From an uncultured Rhodospirillaceae bacterium (GTDB taxonomy: Bacteria > Pseudomonadota > Alphaproteobacteria > Rhodospirillales > Magnetospirillaceae), in contig CAIULK010000229.1 in the NCBI GenBank assembly GCA_903899885.1, positions 1 to 41,501 on the forward strand: a stretch of DNA of 41,501 nucleotides. Reading direction: 5' to 3'. The notes beneath the pieces were generated by a model that was not told where the DNA came from, made no database searches, and saw nothing but the letters and a program-made list of their open reading frames with translations. The position numbers and the translations under genes were made by a program. Below, in pieces: positions 26,272 to 40,637 of this stretch. Numbering within the stretch: the first letter of the stretch is position 1; each line of letters begins with the position of its first letter.

Positions 26272-26535
26272 ATGAGCGAAGAGGAAAAAGACGCCAAGAC
26301 CGGCGGCATCGCCGCCGAAGCGCTGCGTCAGTACATCGACCGGATCGAGCGTCTGGAACAAGAGAAGAAGGCACTGGCCGAAGACATCAAGGACGTCTAT
26401 GGCCAAGTCAAATCCCAGGGGTTCGACCCCAAGATCGTCCGCAAGATCATCTCGCTACGCCGCCGCGACCGCCGCGAGCGCGAGGAGGAGGACGAGCTGC
26501 TGGCCCTGTATCTCGCCGCGATTGGTGAAGTGTAA
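26272..26535 (+). CDS. gapR: GapR family nucleoid protein (DUF2312)
   Basis: An 87-residue DUF2312 protein with the highly conserved core LRQYIDRIERLEQEKKALAE and a basic RKIISLRRRDRRER stretch. GapR of Caulobacter is an essential, alphaproteobacteria-wide nucleoid-associated protein that forms a clamp around overtwisted DNA ahead of replication and transcription and stimulates topoisomerases. It is monocistronic, with a candidate promoter, and closed by a hairpin shared with the convergent pyrE gene. Confidence 0.93.
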   Translation: MSEEEKDAKTGGIAAEALRQYIDRIERLEQEKKALAEDIKDVYGQVKSQGFDPKIVRKIISLRRRDRREREEEDELLALYLAAIGEV

Positions 26536-26555
26536 GAGGGGGGCTTTACCCCCTC
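26536..26555. terminator. Bidirectional hairpin between gapR and pyrE
   Basis: GAGGGGG (26536-26542) pairs with CCCCCTC (26549-26555) right after the gapR stop. The right arm overlaps the pyrE stop codon (26554-26556), so one small hairpin serves both convergent genes. No T-tract of note. Confidence 0.5.
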
Positions 26556-27243
26556 AACCACCCTTCCCGCCGTGCAGGGCGGACCAGCGGACTGGATCGT
26601 GCAGGAACGAGCGGACCTCGTCGATCGTGCGCTTGTCGAAGGCGCCGCCCGTTTCGGCCACTTCCAGCACGTCCCACCAATTGGCCAGGAAGGCCAGACT
26701 GATGCCGATCTCGTTCAAGGATTTCAGCGCGCCGGGAAACACCCCGTAAAAGAACACGACGAAGGCCGTATTCACCACGGCGCCCGCTTCCCGCAGCGCG
26801 TTGCAGAAATTGACCTTCGAGGCGCCGTCCGACGCCAGATCCTCGACCAGCACCACCCGCTGGCCGGGTTTCAGGTCGCCCTCGATCCGGGCGTTGCGGC
26901 CGAAGCCCTTGGCCTGCTTGCGGACATACAGCATCGGCAGCATCATGCGGTCGGCGATCCAAGCGGCATAGGGAATGCCCGCCGTTTCGCCGCCAGCGAT
27001 CGAATCGACCGATTCATACCCGGCGTCGCGCTGAATCGCGGCGGCGGCCAGCTCGGCGATCTTGGCCCGGGCGCGCGGATAGGAAATCACCTTGCGGCAA
27101 TCGACATAGACCGGGCTGGCCCAGCCCGAGGTCAGCATATATGGCTCTTCCGGGCGGAAGTTGACGGCGCCGATCTCCAAAAGGATGCGGGCGGTGGTCA
27201 GGGCGGCTTGTTTTTGCTCAGGCGTGCGCGACTGGGAACTCAT
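26554..27243 (-). CDS. pyrE: Orotate phosphoribosyltransferase
   Basis: A 229-residue PRTase. The PRPP-binding motif RVVLVEDLASDGASK (about 125-140) and SIAGGETAGIPYA and YVRKQAKGFGRNARIEG are typical of the PyrE type found in alphaproteobacteria. It converts orotate and PRPP to orotidine 5'-phosphate in pyrimidine synthesis. It starts at the ATG at 27243. It has its own candidate promoter and is convergent with gapR. Confidence 0.92.
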   Translation of the reverse strand: MSSQSRTPEQKQAALTTARILLEIGAVNFRPEEPYMLTSGWASPVYVDCRKVISYPRARAKIAELAAAAIQRDAGYESVDSIAGGETAGIPYAAWIADRMMLPMLYVRKQAKGFGRNARIEGDLKPGQRVVLVEDLASDGASKVNFCNALREAGAVVNTAFVVFFYGVFPGALKSLNEIGISLAFLANWWDVLEVAETGGAFDKRTIDEVRSFLHDPVRWSALHGGKGG

Positions 27244-27441: not shown

Positions 27442-30318
27442 ATGGGCGACACGATGATTACCGGTGACGAGGCCGAGTCGGAAGGCGCGGTATCCGTGGT
27501 GGATGTTGGCAGCCGCCTCGGGGGTGATTTTCCTCGCCCCGACACGCCCTCCCGTCCGGCACGGCGCATCGCCGGCGAGGCACGGCGCCGCACGCTGACC
27601 GGCGCGGTTCTGACCACCGCGTGGTTCGGCGTCTGCCTGTATTACGTCGATGTCTCGATCGGCTGGACCAACCTGCTGTTTCTGCAACCCCAGGAAATCG
27701 GCGGCGTGGTCGGCGCGGCCTTTGTCCCCATTGCCTTCTTGTGGTTGCTGGTCGCCTATTTCGATCGTGGCAGCCAACTGCGTCATGTCGCCGATGATCT
27801 CGCCCATCATCTGTCGCGGCTGACCTATCCGGCCGAGGATGCCGAGTCCCGCGTCAAGGCGGTGGCCGACGCGCTGCGCCAGCAGGCGATGGAGTTGTCC
27901 GATGTGTCGGCCCGCGCGGTCGAACAGGGCGAAGCCGTCCGCAAGATGCTGTCGCAGCAGATCGAAAACCTGTCCACCGTGGTCGGCAGCATCACCGGCG
28001 ACGCCAAGGGCGCGCTCGACGCCCTGCGCGACGAGGTTGAACGCCTGACCAACGCCGCCGATTCGGCGACCGACCGTGCCCGCGAGGTCGAAAAGCTGCT
28101 GCACCAGCAGACCCAGGAACTCGATCAGGTCACCGCCGCCGCCGCCGCCAAGGTGCGCGAGTTCGGCGAAACCATTCACAAGCATCTGGAGGCGGTGGAC
28201 ACCACCTCGACCCGCGCCTCGGAACGGGCCGACATCATCGCCGGCCGCATGCAGCGCAACACCGACGCGTTGGACCGCACCACCCAGGTGGCGGTGGAAC
28301 GTGCCGATCACGCGCTGAATGTTTTCGAACGCCAAGCGGCGATGATCGCCGACGCCACCTCGAAATCGGCCGCCCGCAGCGAGGACGTCGCCGCCACCCT
28401 GTCGCAGCGCGTCGAATCGCTGGAAGCCCTGTTCGCCCGTCAGAACGCCGATCTCGATCAGGCCGCCGAGCGTTTGGCCGAACAGACCGGGCGCATCAGC
28501 GCCTCGTTGCAGCAGCAGGCGACCGGTCTCGACCAGATCACCGACCGCGTGCTGTCGCGTATCAAGATCGTGGAAGAGGCGCTGTCGGTGCAGTCGCGCG
28601 AACTGTCCTCCTCGTCGGATCAAGCGATGACCCGCTTCCGCGAAATGGAGGAGGTGCTGGGCCGCCACGCCGAAAACCTCAAGGCGCTGGCCGAGAACTC
28701 GACCACCCGCTTGGGCGAGGTGACCGAGGCGTTCGTGCAGTGCGGCACCGATGTCGATACCATCGTCGATCGCAGCTCGGGCCGCATCCGCGAAGTCGGC
28801 GATGCCTTCCAGGGGCAAAGCCGCGCCTTGGCCGCCGCCTCCGACCTAATGCAGGCGCGTGGCCGCGAAGTGTCGGAAACCCTTCGTCTGCACATCGACG
28901 ATCTGAATCGGGGCGCCGAGCGCGCCGCCGCCCAGGCCGAGGCGATCCGTCAGTCGCTGCGCAAGCAGGCCGACGAATTGGCCGACGCAGCCAACGTGGT
29001 CTCGACCCAGTCGCGTTTGTCGGAAGCCTCGCTCAACCAGCAATCGCGTCACTTGATCTCGACCTCGGATCAGGTGATGGGCAAGGTCAAGACCATCTCC
29101 GACACCATGCGTCAAAGCACCAACGATTTGATCGCGATGTCGAGCCGGGTCGGCTTCGAACTGGAAGCGGTCGGCGAGGCGCTGCGGCAGCGGTCCAACG
29201 AAGTGGCGACGGCGGCGACCAAGGCGATCGCCGAAACCACCGGCGTTTCGGACATGCTGGAAGGCCGCTCCGAGCAGATGGCCAACATCACCGAACAGGT
29301 CGGCGCCCGCATCCGTTCCACCACCGACATGCTGCGCAAGCATTCGGAACAGATCGTTGCCTCGGCCGACCAAGCCCAGGCCAGCGTCAGCGCGGTGGGC
29401 GAGACCTTGCGCGAACAAAGCCAAGCCCTGGCCCGCGTCGCCGACGATTCGACCGACGTTTTGAAGGCGTTCGGCCAAGCGATGCAAAAGCACGCGGTCG
29501 AACTGCACGAAGCTGCCCAGCACGTGTTCGCCCAGTCGCAGACGGCGGGCGACGCGCTGCGTCAGATCAGCCGCGACTTCGAGGAAGCCTCGAACAAGAC
29601 CGCCGCGCAGGTTAATGCCGCGGGCGACATGCTGCGGGCCGGCGTGCGCGATCTGTCGGCCGCCACCGAACGGATTACCTCGCAGGTGCGCGCCTCGGGC
29701 GACAGCTTGCGCCGTCAGGCTCAGGAACTTCAGGACATCACCGAACGGACCGGCGGCAAGCTGGAAGGCTCGTTCGAAATGCTGCGCCAGAAGTCCAACG
29801 ATCTGGGCATCACCGGCGACCGTTTGTCGCAACAGGCCGAGACCTTGGCCGCCAACTTCGCCCGTCAGGCCGAGGAACTGGTCAACGCCTCGAAACTGGC
29901 CGAACAGCGTTCGTTGCAACTCGACGAAAAGCGCGCGCGCGCTTCGGTCGAGACCTTCTTGCAAAAGGCCGCCTTCATCGTCGAGAAGCTCCAGTCGCTG
30001 TCGGTCGATATCGGCCGGATCTTCGCCTCGGGCGTCGATGAGAAGGCCTGGCGTGAATTCCACCAGGGCGACCAGTCGGTGTTCGTCCGCAAGATCCTGC
30101 GCAATCTGGACAAGCACCAGATGGCCGCGATCAAGAACAAGTTCGAGGACGACGGCGAGTTCCGCGATTACGTCCTCAAATACCTTACCGAGTTCGAAAC
30201 CCTGCTCAATCAGGCGGCCAACTCGGATGTCCCCGATGTGCTGACCGGCACCTTCACCTCGTCGGAAGTCGGCAAGCTGTATCTGGTGTTGGCCCGTTCA
30301 CTGGGCCGGTTGGAATAG
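27442..30318 (+). CDS. Membrane-anchored giant coiled-coil protein with 27 tandem 25-residue repeats
   Basis: A 958-residue protein not assigned to a named family by me. A polar N-terminus (1-50) is followed by two transmembrane helices (~52-70 and ~86-106) and a short linker. Residues 142-827 are 27 copies of a 25-residue repeat with one extra 11-residue segment after copy 7. Each copy has hydrophobic residues near positions 4, 11, 18, 22 and 25 (for example GETLREQSQAL), that is 7+7+11 spacing, giving one long coiled coil. Residues 828-958 are a distinct, probably folded domain. Two N-terminal helices plus a huge cytoplasmic coiled coil recall the polarity proteins TipN (Caulobacter) and GPR/RgsE (Rhizobiales); homology is untested. 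It is convergent with the flavoprotein gene. Confidence 0.8.
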   Translation: MGDTMITGDEAESEGAVSVVDVGSRLGGDFPRPDTPSRPARRIAGEARRRTLTGAVLTTAWFGVCLYYVDVSIGWTNLLFLQPQEIGGVVGAAFVPIAFLWLLVAYFDRGSQLRHVADDLAHHLSRLTYPAEDAESRVKAVADALRQQAMELSDVSARAVEQGEAVRKMLSQQIENLSTVVGSITGDAKGALDALRDEVERLTNAADSATDRAREVEKLLHQQTQELDQVTAAAAAKVREFGETIHKHLEAVDTTSTRASERADIIAGRMQRNTDALDRTTQVAVERADHALNVFERQAAMIADATSKSAARSEDVAATLSQRVESLEALFARQNADLDQAAERLAEQTGRISASLQQQATGLDQITDRVLSRIKIVEEALSVQSRELSSSSDQAMTRFREMEEVLGRHAENLKALAENSTTRLGEVTEAFVQCGTDVDTIVDRSSGRIREVGDAFQGQSRALAAASDLMQARGREVSETLRLHIDDLNRGAERAAAQAEAIRQSLRKQADELADAANVVSTQSRLSEASLNQQSRHLISTSDQVMGKVKTISDTMRQSTNDLIAMSSRVGFELEAVGEALRQRSNEVATAATKAIAETTGVSDMLEGRSEQMANITEQVGARIRSTTDMLRKHSEQIVASADQAQASVSAVGETLREQSQALARVADDSTDVLKAFGQAMQKHAVELHEAAQHVFAQSQTAGDALRQISRDFEEASNKTAAQVNAAGDMLRAGVRDLSAATERITSQVRASGDSLRRQAQELQDITERTGGKLEGSFEMLRQKSNDLGITGDRLSQQAETLAANFARQAEELVNASKLAEQRSLQLDEKRARASVETFLQKAAFIVEKLQSLSVDIGRIFASGVDEKAWREFHQGDQSVFVRKILRNLDKHQMAAIKNKFEDDGEFRDYVLKYLTEFETLLNQAANSDVPDVLTGTFTSSEVGKLYLVLARSLGRLE
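27865..29922 (+). repeat. 75-base periodic coding repeat (27 units)
   Basis: DNA coding for the 27 protein repeats, period 75 bases, with one 33-base extra unit (encoding AATLSQRVESL) between units 7 and 8. The units have diverged widely in both base and residue sequence, so this is an old expansion and not a slippage-prone tandem array. Confidence 0.75.
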
Positions 30319-30421: not shown

Positions 30422-30513
30422 GCAACACGGACAAACACGGACGCCGCTCGCGTGGCCACGGAAGCGTCTCCTATCCGTGTTTATCCGCGCTCGTCCGTGA
30501 TTGTCCGCGTTGC
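30422..30513. repeat. Imperfect long inverted repeat of the ACGGACAAACACGGAC type
   Basis: The left arm (about 30422-30446) contains CAACACGGACAAACACGGACG. The right arm (about 30487-30513) is nearly its reverse complement, with further partly matching bases toward the centre (TCCGTGTTTATCC near 30474). It lies between two convergent genes, and its right arm encodes the last ten residues and stop of the flavoprotein. Similar ACGGA-rich intergenic repeats occur in many bacteria. It may act as a bidirectional transcription stop. Confidence 0.65.
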
Positions 30514-31749
30514 CTTGGATGATATCGCCTCGGCCGCCGCCGATCCCGCCGCCCATCCGGTGGCCAGGCAAGCGGTCAGCAAGTAGCCGCCGGTAGGGGC
30601 GTCCCAATCCAGCATTTCGCCCGCGGCATACACGCCGGGCAGGCGGCGCAGCATCAGTTCCCCGGTCACGTCGTCGAACCGAATGCCGCCCGCCGAACTG
30701 ATCGCCTCGGCCAACGGGCGGGGGCGCAACAGCGTGACCGGCGCCGCCTTGATGGCGGCCGCCAACAGTGCCGGATCGGTGTAAACATCGGCGGGCGTGA
30801 CCTCGCGCAGAAGGGTCGCCGCCGCGCCGTCAAACCGGATGGCGCGGGCCAGGTGGGTGGACATCGACCGGCTGCCGCGCGGCGCGGCCAGGGCGGCGCG
30901 GATCCGCTCGAACGGCCAATCGGGTTTCAGATCCAGGGCAAGCACGGCCCGTCCCTCGGCCCGGATCAAACCGCGCAAGGCTGCCGACAGGGCGTAAATC
31001 GGTCCGCCCTCCAGCCCGGTCGCGGTCAGAGTCACCGTGCCGCGCAGGCGGCGGCCCTGAAAGGTGACCTCGACCGGTGCCAGCGGGGTTCCCGCATACT
31101 GCGAACGCAGGCGATCGGACCAATCGGCATCGAAACCGCAGTTCGAGGGTTGAAACGGCTTCGTAACGATCCCCTGCGCCGCCAAGGCCGCGACCCAGCC
31201 GCCGTCCGAACCGGTGCGCGGGCGGCTGGCCCCGCCCATTGCCAGAATGGTGGCTGCCGGATGCGCGTTAACCGGCCCATCCGGCGTATCGAACGTCAGG
31301 GCCCTATCGCCGGTCCACCCCCGCCAATGATGGCGCGCCAAACGCCGTACGCCCAAGCGATCCAGCCGCGCCAGCCACGCCCGCAGCAGCGGCTTGGCGC
31401 CAAATCCCGCCGGGAAGACCTTGCCCGAACTGCCGACGATGGTCTCGACACCTAAATCCGCCGCCCATGCCCGCACCGAATCGGGGCCGAAACGATCGAG
31501 AAACGCACCCAGCCGGTCGGCGTCGCCGCCGTACCCGGCCCGGAATTCGCCCGCCGAAACCGCCAGCGTCAAATTCAGCCCACCCCGCCCGGCCAGCAGG
31601 AATTTGCGGCCGACCGTTGCGCCGCCGTCATACAGGGTCACGTTGCCCCCCGCCGTCGCGGCGGCTTGTGCCGCCATCAAGCCGGCCGGACCGCCGCCGA
31701 TCACGGCGATGTCGTTACTGATAATCGTCAGGGTTTTTTGCCAATGCAT
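30481..31749 (-). CDS. HI0933/TIGR03862-type flavoprotein (NAD(P)/FAD-dependent oxidoreductase)
   Basis: A 422-residue FAD protein. The Rossmann motif VIGGGPAGLMAA starts near residue 17, followed by VGRKFLLAGRGGLNLT, a strong marker of the HI0933/BaiN group. The C-terminal FAD motif is LPGVYAAGEMLDWDAPTGGYLLTACLATG. The family includes poorly characterised reductases; the substrate is unknown. It is divergent from the dsrE-like gene with a 44-base gap. The last ten residues (ATRTITDERG) are encoded inside an intergenic inverted repeat, so the C-terminus differs from a normal member. Confidence 0.82.
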   Translation of the reverse strand: MHWQKTLTIISNDIAVIGGGPAGLMAAQAAATAGGNVTLYDGGATVGRKFLLAGRGGLNLTLAVSAGEFRAGYGGDADRLGAFLDRFGPDSVRAWAADLGVETIVGSSGKVFPAGFGAKPLLRAWLARLDRLGVRRLARHHWRGWTGDRALTFDTPDGPVNAHPAATILAMGGASRPRTGSDGGWVAALAAQGIVTKPFQPSNCGFDADWSDRLRSQYAGTPLAPVEVTFQGRRLRGTVTLTATGLEGGPIYALSAALRGLIRAEGRAVLALDLKPDWPFERIRAALAAPRGSRSMSTHLARAIRFDGAAATLLREVTPADVYTDPALLAAAIKAAPVTLLRPRPLAEAISSAGGIRFDDVTGELMLRRLPGVYAAGEMLDWDAPTGGYLLTACLATGWAAGSAAAEAISSKATRTITDERG

Positions 31750-34511: not shown

Positions 34512-34521
34512 TGGAACCTTG

Positions 34522-37500
34522 ATGAACATCTCGACGCCGTTTATTCACCGTCCGATCGCCACATGGTTGCTTGCCTTCGCGGTGGTGTTGGCCGGGGTGC
34601 TGGGATATCGCTGGCTGCCGGTTTCGGCGTTGCCGCAGGTCGATTTTCCGACCATTCAGGTGACCACCCAATTGCCCGGCGCCTCGGCCGATACGATGGC
34701 CTCGTTGGTCACCACGCCGCTGGAACGCCAATTCGGCCTGATTCCGGGGCTGACCACGATGCTGTCAACCTCGTCCTCGTCGCTCAGCGCGGTGACGCTG
34801 CAATTCGATCTGTCCAAGGATATCGACACGGCGGCCGAGGATGTGCAGGCCGCGATCAACGCGGCGCGCGGCGTGCTGCCGACCAATCTTCCCTATCCGC
34901 CGGTCTATTCCAAGGTCAACCCCGCCGATCCGCCGGTCCTGACCCTGGCGCTGACCTCCGAAACCTTGCCGATCGCCAAGGTCAACGATGCCGCCGATAC
35001 CATCTTGGCGCAGAAAATGGCGCAGATCACCGGGGTCGGGCGGGTCACCGTGCAGGGCGGACAGAAACCGGCCTGGCGGGTCCAGATCGACCCGGCCCGG
35101 CTGTCGGCGATGAACTTAAGTTTGGAGGACGTACGGACCGCCCTGTCCAAGAACAATGTCAACCTGCCCAAGGGCGCGTTCGACGGCCCCAGCCAAGCCC
35201 TGTCGCTGGGCGCCAACGATCAGGTGACCGATACCGCCGATTTCCAAGATTTGATCATCGCCGTCCGCAACAACGCCCCGGTACGGGTGCGCGATGTCGG
35301 CACCGTGGCCGAGGGGGTCGAGGATGCGCGGGTGGCGGGTTGGGTCGATGGCCAACCGGCGGTGATCATCGACGTGCAGCGCCAGCCGGGGGCCAATGTC
35401 GTCGATACCGCGCGGCGCATCAAGGAGTTGCTGCCCGACTTGGCGCGCTCGATCGCGTCGGGGATCAAAATCCGGGTCTTGGCCGACCGCACCGTGACCA
35501 TCCGGGCCTCGGTCGCCGATGTCGAGTTCACCTTGGTGCTGACGGTCGGGCTGGTGATCTTGGTGATCGGGCTGTTCTTGCGCAACGGGCGCGCCACCTT
35601 GATCCCGGCGGTGGCCTTGCCCTTGTCGCTGATCGGCACCTTCGGGGTGATGGCCTTGTCGGGCTTCTCGCTCGATAACCTGTCGTTGATGGCGCTGACC
35701 ATCTCGTCGGGCTTCGTGGTCGATGACGCGATCGTGATGATCGAAAACGTCGTCCGCCAGATGGAACTGGGCAAGCCGCCCTTTCGCGCCGCCTTGGATG
35801 GGGCGGGCGAGATCGGCTTTACCATCGTTTCGCTGACCGTGTCGCTGGTCGCGGTGTTTATTCCGCTGCTGTTCATGACCGGCATCGTCGGGCGTCTGTT
35901 CCGGGAATTCGCGCTGACCTTGTCGGCGGCGGTGGTGGTGTCGGCGGTGGTGTCGCTGACGCTGACCCCGATGATGTGCGCCCATCATCTGCGCGGCGCG
36001 TCCGAAGCGCGGTCCGGCGCTTTTTTCATGGCCTTGCTGCGCGGGTACGAGCGTACCCTGGCCGTGGTGCTGCGCCATCAGAAACTGACCCTGCTGGTGA
36101 CGGTGGCGACCCTGGCGGCGACCATGGTCTTGTACGTGGTGGCGCCCAAGGGCTTCCTGCCCGCCCAAGATACCGGTCTTTTGGTGGCGACCACCGACGC
36201 GACGCCGGGGGTGTCGTTTGCTGCCTTGTCGCGGTTGCAGCGTGAAGCCGCCGACCGGGTGCGGCGCGATCCGGCGGTGGAATCGGTCGCCTCGTTCCTG
36301 GGGGCGGGCACGGTCAATCTGACCGCCAACACCGGCCATCTGTCGATCACCTTGAAGCCGCACGGCCAGCGGGCCGACACCGCCGAGGTTGTGGTGCGGC
36401 GTTTGTCGGCGGCGTTGAGCGGGATTCCCAACCTGGAGGTCCATCTGCGGGCCGCCCAGGACATTCAGTTGTCGCCCAACGTCTCGCGCACCCAATACCA
36501 ATACGCGCTGTCGGATATCCGGGCGGGTGAATTAGCGCAGTGGGTGCCCAAGCTGCTGGACGCGATCGGCAAGCTGCCCGGCATTACCGACGCCGCCAGC
36601 GATTCGCAAAACGGCGCGCCGCTTTTGGATTTGAAGGTCGATCGCGATCTGGCGACCCGGATGGGGGTGCTGCCGCAAGCGATCGACGATACCTTGTACG
36701 ACGCCTTCGGCCAACGGCCGGTGACCACGGTTTACAGCCAAGTCAATCAGTACCGGGTGATTCTGGAAGTGTTGCCCGAGCAGCAAAGCGGGCCCGAGAC
36801 CCTGTCGTCGCTGTATGTCCGCGCCTCGGGTGGCGCGCTGGTGCCTTTGAACACCTTCGTCACGCAAGAGCGCACCCAGGCGCCGCTGCTGATTAGTCAC
36901 CTGAACCAGTTTCCGGCGGCGACGCTGTCGTTCAACCTTGCCCCCGGCGCCGCGCTGGGCGACGCGATCACCGCGATCGAGGCGGCCGGGCACGCGCTGG
37001 GCTTGCCCGAAACCATCGCCGGGGTGTTTTCCGGCGATGCCGCCGAATTCCGCCGCTCGCTGTCGGGCGAATTGTGGCTGGTTCTGGCCGCCGTGGTGGT
37101 GATCTACATTGTTCTGGGCGTGCTGTATGAAAGCTGGATCCACCCGGTGACCATTCTCTCGACGCTTCCTTCCGCCGGGGTGGGGGCGCTGTTGGCGCTG
37201 CGGGCGACCGGCCAGGATCTGTCGCTGGTCGGTTTGATCGGCATCGTTTTGCTGATGGGCATCGTCAAGAAGAACGCGATCATGATGATCGACTTCGCGC
37301 TGGTTGCCGAACGCGACGACGGCCTGTCGCCCGAGGACGCCATCACGCGCGCCGCCAGTCTGCGCTTCCGCCCGATCATGATGACCACGATGGCCGCCTT
37401 GCTGGGGGCGCTGCCCCTGGCGCTGGACATGGGGGTCGGCGCCGAGCTGCGCCGCCCGATGGGCATCGCCATTGTCGGCGGGCTGCTGCTGTCGCAGGCC

Positions 37501-37563
37501 CTGACCCTTTACACCACGCCGGTGGTCTATCTGGCGCTGGACCGTTTCCGCAGGGCGGTCTGA
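34522..37563 (+). CDS. RND efflux permease (MdtB-like)
   Basis: A 1013-residue inner-membrane RND transporter with twelve expected transmembrane helices and two large periplasmic loops. The proton-relay aspartate pair is visible in helix 4 (GFVVDDAIVMIENVV). The HAE1-type signature FPTIQVTTQLPGASADTMASLVTTPLE follows the first helix. It resembles MdtB/MdtC, which work as a heteromeric pair. The ATG at 34522 follows a short GGA; its stop overlaps the next permease start (TGATG), so the two are translated together. No membrane-fusion adaptor gene precedes it. Confidence 0.9.
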   Translation: MNISTPFIHRPIATWLLAFAVVLAGVLGYRWLPVSALPQVDFPTIQVTTQLPGASADTMASLVTTPLERQFGLIPGLTTMLSTSSSSLSAVTLQFDLSKDIDTAAEDVQAAINAARGVLPTNLPYPPVYSKVNPADPPVLTLALTSETLPIAKVNDAADTILAQKMAQITGVGRVTVQGGQKPAWRVQIDPARLSAMNLSLEDVRTALSKNNVNLPKGAFDGPSQALSLGANDQVTDTADFQDLIIAVRNNAPVRVRDVGTVAEGVEDARVAGWVDGQPAVIIDVQRQPGANVVDTARRIKELLPDLARSIASGIKIRVLADRTVTIRASVADVEFTLVLTVGLVILVIGLFLRNGRATLIPAVALPLSLIGTFGVMALSGFSLDNLSLMALTISSGFVVDDAIVMIENVVRQMELGKPPFRAALDGAGEIGFTIVSLTVSLVAVFIPLLFMTGIVGRLFREFALTLSAAVVVSAVVSLTLTPMMCAHHLRGASEARSGAFFMALLRGYERTLAVVLRHQKLTLLVTVATLAATMVLYVVAPKGFLPAQDTGLLVATTDATPGVSFAALSRLQREAADRVRRDPAVESVASFLGAGTVNLTANTGHLSITLKPHGQRADTAEVVVRRLSAALSGIPNLEVHLRAAQDIQLSPNVSRTQYQYALSDIRAGELAQWVPKLLDAIGKLPGITDAASDSQNGAPLLDLKVDRDLATRMGVLPQAIDDTLYDAFGQRPVTTVYSQVNQYRVILEVLPEQQSGPETLSSLYVRASGGALVPLNTFVTQERTQAPLLISHLNQFPAATLSFNLAPGAALGDAITAIEAAGHALGLPETIAGVFSGDAAEFRRSLSGELWLVLAAVVVIYIVLGVLYESWIHPVTILSTLPSAGVGALLALRATGQDLSLVGLIGIVLLMGIVKKNAIMMIDFALVAERDDGLSPEDAITRAASLRFRPIMMTTMAALLGALPLALDMGVGAELRRPMGIAIVGGLLLSQALTLYTTPVVYLALDRFRRAV

Positions 37564-40500
37564 TGGAACGGATCATCTTCCGGCCCGTGGGTGTCAGCCT
37601 GTTGGCCCTGGGGGTGTTCCTGGCCGGGATGGCGGCATTCGTTCTGCTGCCGGTGGCGCCGTTGCCGGCGGTCGATATTCCGACCATTCAAATCTCGGCC
37701 AACCTGCCGGGTGCCGATCCCGAAACCATGGCCGCCACCGTCGCCGCCCCCTTGGAACGCCGGTTGGGTGAGATCGCCGGGGTCACCGAAATGACCTCGA
37801 CCAGTTCGCTGGGCTCGGTCTCGATCGTTGTGCAGTTCGATCTGAAACGCAATGTCGATGGCGCCGCCCACGACGTGCAGGCCGCGATCAACGCCGCCAT
37901 GGGGGACCTGGCCGGGGATCTGCCGACGCCGCCGGTCTATCGCAAGGTCAACCCGGCGGATGCGCCGGTTCTGATTTTGGCGGTGTCCTCGGACACGCTG
38001 ACCATGGCCCAAGTGTTCGATGCAGCCGATTCGATTCTGTCGCAGCGGATTTCGCAGATCGAGGGGGTGGCCCAGGTCATGGTCAACGGCGCCCAGAAAC
38101 CGGCGGTGCGGGTGCGGGTCAATCCGAACACCGTCGCCCAGATGGGTTTGGGGATGGAGGATGTGCGAACCGCGCTGACCAACGCCAATGCCGACAATCC
38201 GAAGGGCGGGTTCGATGGCCCTACCCAATCGCTGCCCATCGCGCTCAATGACCAGTTGTTCACGGCGGCGGGGGTGGCGCCCTTGATCTTGAAGGCGCGA
38301 GACGGCGCGGTGGTGCGTTTGTCGGCGGTCGCCTCGGTGGTCGATGGGGTGGAAAACACTCGGTTGGCGGGGTGGTTCAATCGCGATCCGGCGGTTTTGC
38401 TGATCATCACCAAGCAGGTTAATGCCAACGTCATCGAGACCGTCGATCGCATCAAGGATCTGCTGCCGGAACTGGAACGCTGGATGCCGGTGGGTGCCAA
38501 GGTCACGGTGGTGTCGGACCGCACCGGCAACATTCGCGCCAATGTGCACGACGTCGAGCGCACGCTGGCGATCAGCATCACCTTGGTGATCCTGGTGGTC
38601 TATCTGTCGCTGGGCCGGATGACCCCGACCCTGGCGGCCAGTGTCACCGTGCCCCTGTCCTTGGCCTCGACCTTCGCGGTGATGAAGCTGCTGGGCTATG
38701 GGCTGGACAATATCTCGCTGATGGCGCTGACCATTTCGGTCGGTTTCGTGGTGGACGACGCGATCGTGATGATCGAGAACATCGCCCGCCATATCGAAAA
38801 GGGCGAGGCGGCGCTGCCCGCGGCGATCCGGGGGGCGCGCGAGATCGTCTTCACGGTGGTGTCGATCAGCCTGTCGCTGGTCGCGGTGTTCATCCCGTTG
38901 CTGTTCATGGGCGGCGTTATCGGCCGGTTGTTCCGGGAATTCGCGGTCACCCTGACGGTGGCGATCCTGGCCAGTTGCGTGGTGTCGCTGACCGTGACGC
39001 CGACGGTCTATGGCCATTTGATGCACCGCCGCCGTCACGGCAGGCCGTCCCGGATGGCGCGCGGCGGCGAGGCGACCATGGAACATGCCCGGCGGTTGTA
39101 TCTAAGGGGGTTGGCGGTCACCATGCGCCACCCGCGCCTGACCCTGTCGACCTTGGTGCTGACCATCGCGGCGACAATCTATCTGTATGGCCAAGTGCCC
39201 AAGGGATTCTTCCCGCCGCAAGACACCGGCATGATCATGGCGGTCACCGAGGGGCGGACCGATATTCCCTTCCGCGAAATCACCGTCTTGCAACGCAAGG
39301 CCGCCGACATCATCCTGGGGGACCCCGGCGTCGATACCTTGGCGTCGTTCGTCGGCGCGGGCGGCGGCATCGCGACCAGCAATCAGGGCCGGCTCTTCGT
39401 CAGCCTGAAGCCGCTGGACCAGCGCGGGGTGTCGGCCGACCAGATCATCGCGCGATTGCGTCCGAAACTGGCCAAGGTCCAAGGGCTTGCAACGTTCATG
39501 CAGGCCGGCCAGGACATCCGGGTCGGCGGGCGGATGGGCAAGGCCGCCTTTCAGTTCGTGCTGTGGGATGAATCGCTGGACGAACTGCGCGAATGGACCC
39601 CAAAATTGATCGCGCGGCTGAAAACCGTGCCGGGACTGACCGACGTGACCAGCGATCAAGACGCGGCGATCCCGCAAGTGACCGTGGTCGTCGATCGCGA
39701 CGCCGCCGCGCGCCTGGGTGTCACGGCCAGCGATGTCGATCAGGTTTTGGAAGACGCCTTCGCCCAACGGCAAGTATCGACCATCTACACCCAGCGCAAT
39801 CAGTACAAGGTGGTGCTGGAAGTCGATCCCGCGTGGCAGAATACCCCCGATTCGCTGCACGCGCTGCATGTCGCGTCGGCCAACGGCGGGCTGGTGCCGC
39901 TGGATGCGGTTGCTCATTACAGCGTGGGACCGGCCCCGGTCTCGGTCTCGCACCAAGGGCAGTTTCCGGCGGCGACGCTGTCGTTCAATCTGGCGGGGGG
40001 AGCGGCCTTGGGCGACGCCACCAAAAGCGTGCTCGACGCGGGCGCCGCGATCGGTCTGCCGCCCGGCATTCATGCCGAATTCGCGGGCAATGCCAAGGCC
40101 TTCGCCGACTCGCTCAAGGACGAGCCGCTGTTGATCGGCGCGGCGCTGCTGGCGATCTATATCGTCCTGGGGGTTCTGTACGAAAGCTGGATTCACCCGG
40201 TGACGATTCTGTCGACCCTGCCCTCGGCTGGGTTGGGTGCCTTGCTCGCACTGCTGGTCACCGGCACCGAGCTGACCTTGATCAGCATCATCGGGGTGAT
40301 TCTGCTGATGGGGATCGTTAAAAAGAACGGCATCATTCTGGTCGATTTTGCCCTGGCCGCCGAACGCGAACGCGGGGTCAACCCGACCCGCGCGATTTTG
40401 ATGGCGTGCCGTCAGCGCTTCCGGCCGATCATCATGACCACCTTGACCGCCCTGTTGGGCGCGGTGCCGCTGGCCTTGGCGACGGGAGCGGGGGGCGCCT

Positions 40501-40637
40501 TGCGGCGGCCGCTGGGAATCGCCATCGTCGGCGGGCTCTTGGTGTCGCAGGCCCTTACGCTTTACACCACACCGGCATTATACTTGGCGTTCGCCGAGAT
40601 GGTTCGCTGGTGGCGGCGCAGGAGGACGATACCGTGA
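37563..40637 (+). CDS. RND efflux permease (MdtC-like)
   Basis: A 1024-residue RND permease partner of the preceding gene. It has the proton-relay pair GFVVDDAIVMIENIAR, the inner-loop start IPTIQISANLPGADPETMAATVAAPLE, and conserved C-terminal helices ending SQALTLYTTPALYLAFAEM. The two permeases share clear similarity along their length (for instance VLYESWIHPVTILSTLPSAG in both), so they derive from a duplication as in MdtBC. Expected to form a heterotrimeric drug or metabolite pump. Its stop overlaps the outer-membrane lipoprotein gene's GTG start by four bases. Confidence 0.9.
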   Translation: MERIIFRPVGVSLLALGVFLAGMAAFVLLPVAPLPAVDIPTIQISANLPGADPETMAATVAAPLERRLGEIAGVTEMTSTSSLGSVSIVVQFDLKRNVDGAAHDVQAAINAAMGDLAGDLPTPPVYRKVNPADAPVLILAVSSDTLTMAQVFDAADSILSQRISQIEGVAQVMVNGAQKPAVRVRVNPNTVAQMGLGMEDVRTALTNANADNPKGGFDGPTQSLPIALNDQLFTAAGVAPLILKARDGAVVRLSAVASVVDGVENTRLAGWFNRDPAVLLIITKQVNANVIETVDRIKDLLPELERWMPVGAKVTVVSDRTGNIRANVHDVERTLAISITLVILVVYLSLGRMTPTLAASVTVPLSLASTFAVMKLLGYGLDNISLMALTISVGFVVDDAIVMIENIARHIEKGEAALPAAIRGAREIVFTVVSISLSLVAVFIPLLFMGGVIGRLFREFAVTLTVAILASCVVSLTVTPTVYGHLMHRRRHGRPSRMARGGEATMEHARRLYLRGLAVTMRHPRLTLSTLVLTIAATIYLYGQVPKGFFPPQDTGMIMAVTEGRTDIPFREITVLQRKAADIILGDPGVDTLASFVGAGGGIATSNQGRLFVSLKPLDQRGVSADQIIARLRPKLAKVQGLATFMQAGQDIRVGGRMGKAAFQFVLWDESLDELREWTPKLIARLKTVPGLTDVTSDQDAAIPQVTVVVDRDAAARLGVTASDVDQVLEDAFAQRQVSTIYTQRNQYKVVLEVDPAWQNTPDSLHALHVASANGGLVPLDAVAHYSVGPAPVSVSHQGQFPAATLSFNLAGGAALGDATKSVLDAGAAIGLPPGIHAEFAGNAKAFADSLKDEPLLIGAALLAIYIVLGVLYESWIHPVTILSTLPSAGLGALLALLVTGTELTLISIIGVILLMGIVKKNGIILVDFALAAERERGVNPTRAILMACRQRFRPIIMTTLTALLGAVPLALATGAGGALRRPLGIAIVGGLLVSQALTLYTTPALYLAFAEMVRWWRRRRTIP

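Follow-up and report, generated by a model that had tools for sequence, protein, structure and literature searches.

Results

Architecture of the protein

An open reading frame at positions 27442-30318 (+) of contig CAIULK010000229.1, derived from an uncultured Rhodospirillaceae bacterium of the GTDB family Magnetospirillaceae and analysed here over 41,501 nucleotides (hereafter the window), starts with ATG and encodes a protein of 958 amino acids. Based on the frame call and on its homologs, the product (27442..30318) was assigned to a superfamily that takes in RgsE/GPR and TipN, and it appears to be a membrane-anchored coiled-coil rod of fixed length. All parts described below are encoded on the + strand. 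Residues 1-48 (27442..27585) make up an N-terminal tail that is variable among relatives, where the position of a YP landmark (residues 129-130 in the window protein, right behind the hairpin) varies while the rod length is constant; judged from open frames, the tails vary in length. A conserved membrane hairpin follows (residues 49-127; 27586..27822), delimited by a structure model, hydropathy and conservation. In the AlphaFold model of residues 49-169, helices 50-73 and 83-127 form a two-helix hairpin with a mean pLDDT of 88, and the N-terminal hydrophobic segment is conserved among relatives. Only the second membrane helix (86-104) passed the Kyte-Doolittle cut-off and the first is consequently the weaker call. 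The two N-terminal membrane helices claimed in the initial annotation are thus borne out as a modelled hairpin on a conserved segment, the first of them being weak by hydropathy.

The periodicity of the rod was evaluated by self-correlation. With BLOSUM62 scores over residues 142-827, the maximum was found at a lag of 25 residues (z 16.0), with lags of 75, 50 and 100 next, as compared to a top z of 4.0 at any lag (1-119) in 200 shuffles. This agrees with the 25-residue period noticed initially. Residues 342-816 served to train a 25-column matrix, and segmentation based on it gave 8 units (residues 131-330; 27832..28431), a single 11-residue, or hendecad, unit (residues 331-341; 28432..28464) and 19 consecutive units (residues 342-816; 28465..29889), adding up to 27 x 25 + 11 = 686 residues. 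The initial annotation had arrived at the same total; its phase differs, since the segmentation starts 11 residues earlier, and one of its places went unscored. Two of the first 8 units are weak, residues 281-305 having been skipped as too weak to score and residues 181-205 being weak. Core positions 4, 8, 11, 15, 22 and 25 of the repeat produce the 7+7+11 hydrophobic spacing that had been described, which places 25 residues over 7 turns, or 3.57 per turn. In all 26 positive-scoring units position 15 is Leu, Met, Phe or Ile and position 22 is a large hydrophobic residue. The previously suggested rod length of ~100 nm presupposes a rod that is helical throughout.

Period 25 was strong in all 31 loci analysed from the family and order of the window (lag-25 z 12.2-27.3), while the lag-25 z of 21 other loci of the class ranged from 3.0 to 25.0. 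Eight Caulobacteraceae rods were weakly periodic at 25 (z 4.6-5.6). The period of two Rhizobiaceae proteins, from Sinorhizobium meliloti and Shinella, peaked at 22 residues, then at 11, 29 or 44. The chief periods of 22, 25 and 29 are all sums of 7 and 11.

The C-terminal 131 amino acids (residues 828-958; 29923..30315) form a conserved domain that was modelled as helical with a mean pLDDT of 82.7, in keeping with the domain first proposed, and that is by homology common to RgsE and a TipN-like protein. On its own this C-terminus matched no Pfam or NCBIfam family. A sequence search of the PDB gave nothing convincing, the best profile match (E 0.004) being to de novo designed proteins. No structural relative of the domain was returned by Foldseek at E <= 0.001 or by VIA-align at Z >= 8, negatives that are uninformative for a helical bundle.

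Family assignments and the apolipoprotein-like alternative

Scanning of the whole protein and both termini resulted only in matches below curated cut-offs, which were rejected, to Pfam/NCBIfam families such as Utp12, ATG17, Mce and PspB, as was the ZorA antiphage subunit (NF033914; 21.6 bits, cut-off 190). Apolipoprotein A1/A4/E (PF01442) matched at 44.2 bits (E 2e-11) and was likewise rejected at a curated cut-off of 90. A search of the window's own genome with PF01442 listed three other weak loci below the cut-off and left the window gene unlisted, and 7 of 14 control genomes were positive. The family is accordingly not specific and was dropped as a marker.

The similarity to PF01442, weak as it is, brings up an alternative in which the rod would lie on the membrane and organise lipid as an apolipoprotein-like amphipathic rod instead of forming a coiled coil. 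GPR has been discussed as apolipoprotein-like (PMC8262873), and the presumed RgsE described below scores 257.8 bits. Against this, the score of the window protein is far under the cut-off, its core is a narrow stripe of 7+7+11 spacing with Leu at positions 15 and 22 that suits helix packing, and the rod period of RgsE is 22/11 rather than 25. We consider such a lipid-organising rod improbable and a coiled coil the better description.

Homology to RgsE/GPR

In a 7.3-Gb plasmid collection the C-terminus matched six records in all, including S. meliloti UIJ93612.1 (E 1e-15). This protein of 2,089 amino acids is encoded on a 3.7-Mb replicon with cytochrome bc1 genes nearby (L085:3076-9345, L denoting a fetched locus); its record carries the misleading annotation 'kinesin'. 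RgsE is described as a GPR homolog of 2,089 amino acids that is membrane-anchored, cytoplasmic and located at the growing pole (PMC7327166), and because of the shared length the match was taken to be RgsE. Compared over their full length, the window protein and this presumed RgsE are 36% identical across 112 C-terminal amino acids (E 7e-20), and their N-terminal membrane regions match more weakly (E 3e-6). Profiles run on the presumed RgsE gave E 8e-32 for the C-terminus and 8e-7 for the N-terminal profile A2. The comparison with RgsE and GPR made initially from size and plan is in this way supported by homology at both ends.

The window protein is not RgsE/GPR proper, as it has 958 amino acids and not ~2,100 and, at 44.2 bits, is below the PF01442 cut-off of 90. 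It does combine a C-terminal domain homologous to that of RgsE, an N-terminal anchor homologous to that of RgsE, the first helix of which is weak by hydropathy, and a long rod built on 7 and 11.

Homology to TipN

Caulobacter genomes were reached using PopZ as bait, which provided 12 genomes of Caulobacter, Phenylobacterium and related metagenome-assembled genomes (MAGs). The C-terminal profile had a single match per genome in 11 of these 12 (E 4e-9 to 6e-7), on open frames of 861-1091 amino acids and in one case of 181. Eight of the Caulobacteraceae genes were fetched; counted from the first Met they encode 846-909 amino acids, and lengths of 888-892 are shared by four close Caulobacter relatives. 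The N-termini of the eight proteins show two or three peaks of hydropathy. TipN is reported to have 882 amino acids (PMC13170164), with a pair of membrane segments at the N-terminus ahead of a large coiled-coil region (PMC9178275), an arrangement that is also found in the window protein, again with a first segment that is weak by hydropathy. Alignment of the C-terminal profiles of the window's family and the TipN-like proteins using hhalign resulted in a probability of 97.3% (E 2e-11, 61 columns) and profile-profile comparison of the N-termini in one of 84.4% (E 7e-6). The TipN comparison of the initial annotation is supported by profile for the TipN-like protein of Caulobacteraceae. A similarity between GPR and TipN is already in print (PMC8546619).

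Distribution and phylogeny

The C-terminal 131 amino acids were matched in 52 of 61 genomes including the window's own; 37 genomes of its family contributed 32 of these (own included), and 24 genomes from other families of the order contributed 20. Across the class, the C-terminal profile was matched in 92 of 240 genomes, own included. A midpoint-rooted tree built on the C-terminal domain recovers the window's family as a single clade (support 0.88) among the sequences of its order, with three class loci intermixed, and shows no sign of recent transfer. The family and one locus of another family (L032) group with lineages that have longer rods (support 0.91-0.92), which suggests that the rod of the window protein is probably a shortened form.

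That RgsE has distant homologs in Rhodospirillales is published (PMC7327166) and the family is in that sense known. The same study found no other Rgs homologs in this order and considers a different role for RgsE homologs outside Rhizobiales. On this basis the protein could be a lineage-specific structural or signalling protein that has the ends of the superfamily and an unrelated role, and a rod less than half as long as that of RgsE and of another period would fit such an origin. Conservation of both ends and of the architecture across many families speaks against it, as does the position of the window's family as one clade within its order with no sign of recent transfer. Of the alternatives weighed here, a role unrelated to the superfamily is the one we find hardest to credit.

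The family of the window is that of Magnetospirillum, and Magnetospirillum gryphiswaldense MSR-1 carries an ortholog at ~579.4-582.3 kb (frame end at G027:C1:582344, G denoting a genome and C a contig). MSR-1 is also the host of CcfM, which is reportedly membrane-anchored and widespread in spirillum-shaped Alphaproteobacteria. As described, CcfM is a coiled-coil protein of MSR-1 that is found on the positively curved inner membrane (PMC9512821). By this description it is the chief rival to a polar or division-site scaffold: the window protein or its M. gryphiswaldense ortholog would be, or act like, CcfM, a curvature or cytolinker filament that follows the inner cell curvature and couples MreB and the magnetosome skeleton with the shape of the cell, and CcfM and the MSR-1 ortholog may be identical. 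The superfamily extends far past one bacterial group, with matches in 92 of the 240 class genomes, and we hold a CcfM-like function to be unlikely.

Conservation of rod length

Rod length was measured from the YP landmark just after the hairpin to a landmark at the start of the C-terminal domain. Loci cut at contig ends (L033, L038, L039), short frames (G026, G030, G049) and a gene split over contigs (G001) were left out of the counts, and lengths are approximate for L040 and for divergent class loci that lack the YP landmark. A rod of 709 residues was shared by 21 genomes, 20 from the window's family together with L032, at an ungapped identity of down to 32%, and the nine further family genomes that could be measured had 705 residues. 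Between 705 and 709, the best single 4-residue gap (tried on 4 of the 9) falls near residue 217, which would fit the change of an 11-residue unit into one of 7. Among 16 measurable loci from 16 other families of the order, a rod of 1,119 residues was found in 7, from seven families, with a mean identity of 28% and a minimum of 22%. One of the remaining loci (L032) had 709 residues, one had 1,118, and seven ranged from 843 to 1,707.

Identity was also compared in register and after a shift of 25 residues. All 9 testable blocks of the 1,119 group had the higher mean identity in register. Between L032 and the other 709-residue rods, it was higher in 7 of 9 blocks, equal in one and lower in one (0.21 vs 0.22). 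Two observations count against an exact length: 8 of the 16 loci from other families have neither 709 nor 1,119 residues, and the L032 rod may contain a compensating pair of insertion and deletion.

SMC proteins, which differ from the scaffold protein in fold and ends, were used as a control, since their long coiled coils also vary little in length across these genomes. An unbroken SMC match of 1,141-1,142 codons was found in 6 of 7 genomes of the 1,119 group. The SMC coil region was ~52% identical among four aligned sequences of this group, as compared to 28% for the 1,119-residue rod, and 45% identical in a second set (five of the window's family plus one) for which gap counts, distorted by the L212 row (a 1,322-residue frame), were not used. 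Fixed length is hence not unique to the scaffold rod, yet judging from these alignments it is kept there at much lower identity than in SMC.

Genomic context and Hpt genes

The scaffold gene stands alone, divergent from pyrE (26554-27243, -) upstream and convergent with a gene for an HI0933-like flavoprotein (30481-31749, -) downstream. Close by is the gene of a GapR-type nucleoid protein (26272-26535, +; PF10073, E 9e-31). Further downstream, the window contains two consecutive RND-type transporter genes of the AcrB family that encode 1014 and 1024 amino acids (34519-40637, +). The neighbourhood (pyrE, gapR, rpoZ, spoT) is mostly unconserved, with neighbours of the window recurring in 3 of 61 other loci, the flanks of which were limited: L059 has pyrE upstream, L076 has rpoZ-spoT downstream and L054 carries the HI0933-like gene on its downstream side.

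In ten fetched loci from genomes of Hyphomicrobiales or Sphingomonadales type, a small Hpt-like gene lies divergently upstream of the scaffold gene (L085:2093-2458, -; L086:3673-3963, -; and also L065, L066, L068, L069, L079, L080, L082 and L087). Three of these loci are from S. meliloti, Shinella and Sphingomonas, and six others group with Rhizobiaceae or Sphingomonas in the tree of the C-terminal domain. Seven of the ten genes passed the Pfam cut-off for Hpt; the three that failed are of sphingomonad type and without the phospho-accepting His. In these (L066:7331-7627, L068:5516-5905, L086:3673-3963) Met, Trp or Leu takes the place of this His, and they may on that account bind rather than relay phosphate.

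When places were compared by hand, an Hpt gene was adjacent to and divergent from the scaffold gene in 18 of the 92 class genomes positive for the C-terminal domain, 11 of which gave no row to the Hpt model. At E <= 1e-10 the Hpt profile matched in 51 of 240 class genomes and, beyond the 18, the genes were located elsewhere. The 31 loci compared from the family and order, like 8 Caulobacteraceae loci, showed no separate Hpt gene adjoining the homolog; some of these loci are cut at contig ends. The window also lacks the gene that lies 124 bases downstream of the MSR-1 ortholog (L053:8470-12807, +) and encodes a large hybrid histidine kinase containing PAS, receiver and Hpt domains. The pairing appears to be new: no report of it was met in the literature searched, where no search named Hpt.

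Discussion

Proposed function

The 958-residue protein is the short member of the RgsE/GPR-TipN superfamily in the Magnetospirillum family. Most likely it serves as a scaffold that is anchored in the membrane and located at the cell pole and/or the division site, a reading to which we assign a probability of roughly 65%. The polar role suggested in the initial annotation is a prediction, and the pole or the division plane is the likely site by analogy with TipN and RgsE/GPR. Based on anatomy and homology, both ends of the protein would face the cytoplasm with the hairpin anchored in the inner membrane. The 7+7+11 repeat would form a nearly straight, self-associating helical rod of ~100 nm, which would fix either the spacing between anchor and C-terminal head or the pitch of a membrane ring or filament, and the head would dock client proteins.

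MreB is present in the genome of the window (G000:C197:25871-26856; L207, L208), where it is found as two overlapping frames of 293 and 58 amino acids; the split perhaps reflects a frameshift in the assembly. A role in polar growth as in Rhizobiales is unlikely, given that MreB is present and that other Rgs proteins are reported absent from Rhodospirillales and a different role is raised in the study concerned (PMC7327166). In MreB-containing hosts, the clients of the proposed scaffold would more likely serve cell division, the chromosome, flagella or MreB-directed processes, like those of TipN, than a polar-growth machine, like those of RgsE/GPR.

A number of observations weigh against the proposed scaffold. 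The Caulobacteraceae proteins were taken to be TipN by size, topology and genus and not by accession, their profile match is confined to 61 columns in the second half of the C-terminal domain, and one Caulobacter vibrioides MAG (G298) was matched neither by the C-terminal profile nor by the TipN-like protein. PopZ (PF10691), a hub linked to TipN, was undetected in the window's genome, rated 100% complete, by a search that was positive in control C. vibrioides. Five of the 37 genomes of the same family had no C-terminal match, three of them rated >=98% complete (one of these is only 0.9 Mb), and the gene may thus be dispensable or have been missed. Lastly, the C-terminal domain is without an informative structural relative, so its part as a 'docking head' stays conditional.

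A more specific and doubtful version is that the rod acts as a molecular ruler whose residue-exact length is the selected function, with an output tied to Hpt in genomes of Hyphomicrobiales and Sphingomonadales type. If true, length would set the distance between anchor and head, or how long each unit of a ring or filament is, corresponding to ~105 nm for 709 residues and ~166 nm for 1,119 if fully helical. Constancy of length is by itself no proof of a ruler, since SMC is also nearly fixed in length.

What appears to be new is the common 25-residue unit of 7+7+11, the residue-exact rod length and the Hpt pairing, as judged from a literature search that was hardly aimed at the repeat as such, left subscription journals mostly uncovered and is a weak negative. 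TipN and RgsE/GPR are key polarity factors that are usually handled apart. Homology at both ends joins them and many uncharacterised proteins of Rhodospirillales in one architecture, in which the common rod unit is a mix of 7 and 11 and several lineages hold the length to the residue over deep divergence. The resemblance now yields questions that can be tested, namely whether rod length, which can be altered by 25 or 11 residues at a time with the register kept, matters and what the C-terminal domain binds, and M. gryphiswaldense is a genetic model with an ortholog.

Comparison with known systems

CcfM of M. gryphiswaldense is a coiled-coil cytoskeletal protein from the same bacterial group as the window protein, and the two are likened by description only (PMC9512821). 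Close comparisons are also with RgsE (S. meliloti SMc00190) and GPR (Agrobacterium tumefaciens Atu1348), with which the window protein shares the C-terminal domain, the hairpin region and a long, membrane-anchored helical rod. It differs from RgsE in having 958 instead of 2,089 amino acids and a rod less than half as long, in a rod period of 25 as opposed to 22/11, and in a PF01442 score that is below the cut-off while that of RgsE is above it. RgsE/GPR proper forms a ring or focus at the growing pole and is needed for polar growth. An Hpt gene adjoins the RgsE gene, whereas none was seen beside the window gene. TipN of Caulobacter crescentus (CC_1485, 882 amino acids) marks the new pole and has TipF, ParA and PopZ as partners. 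Compared by way of its presumed Caulobacteraceae orthologs, it resembles the window protein in size, membrane segments and coiled-coil rod. By profile, the C-terminal domains of the window protein and these presumed orthologs match at 97.3% and homology of the N-termini is probable (84.4%), whereas sequence identity is low and the 25-residue periodicity of the TipN-like rod is weak (z 4.6-5.6).

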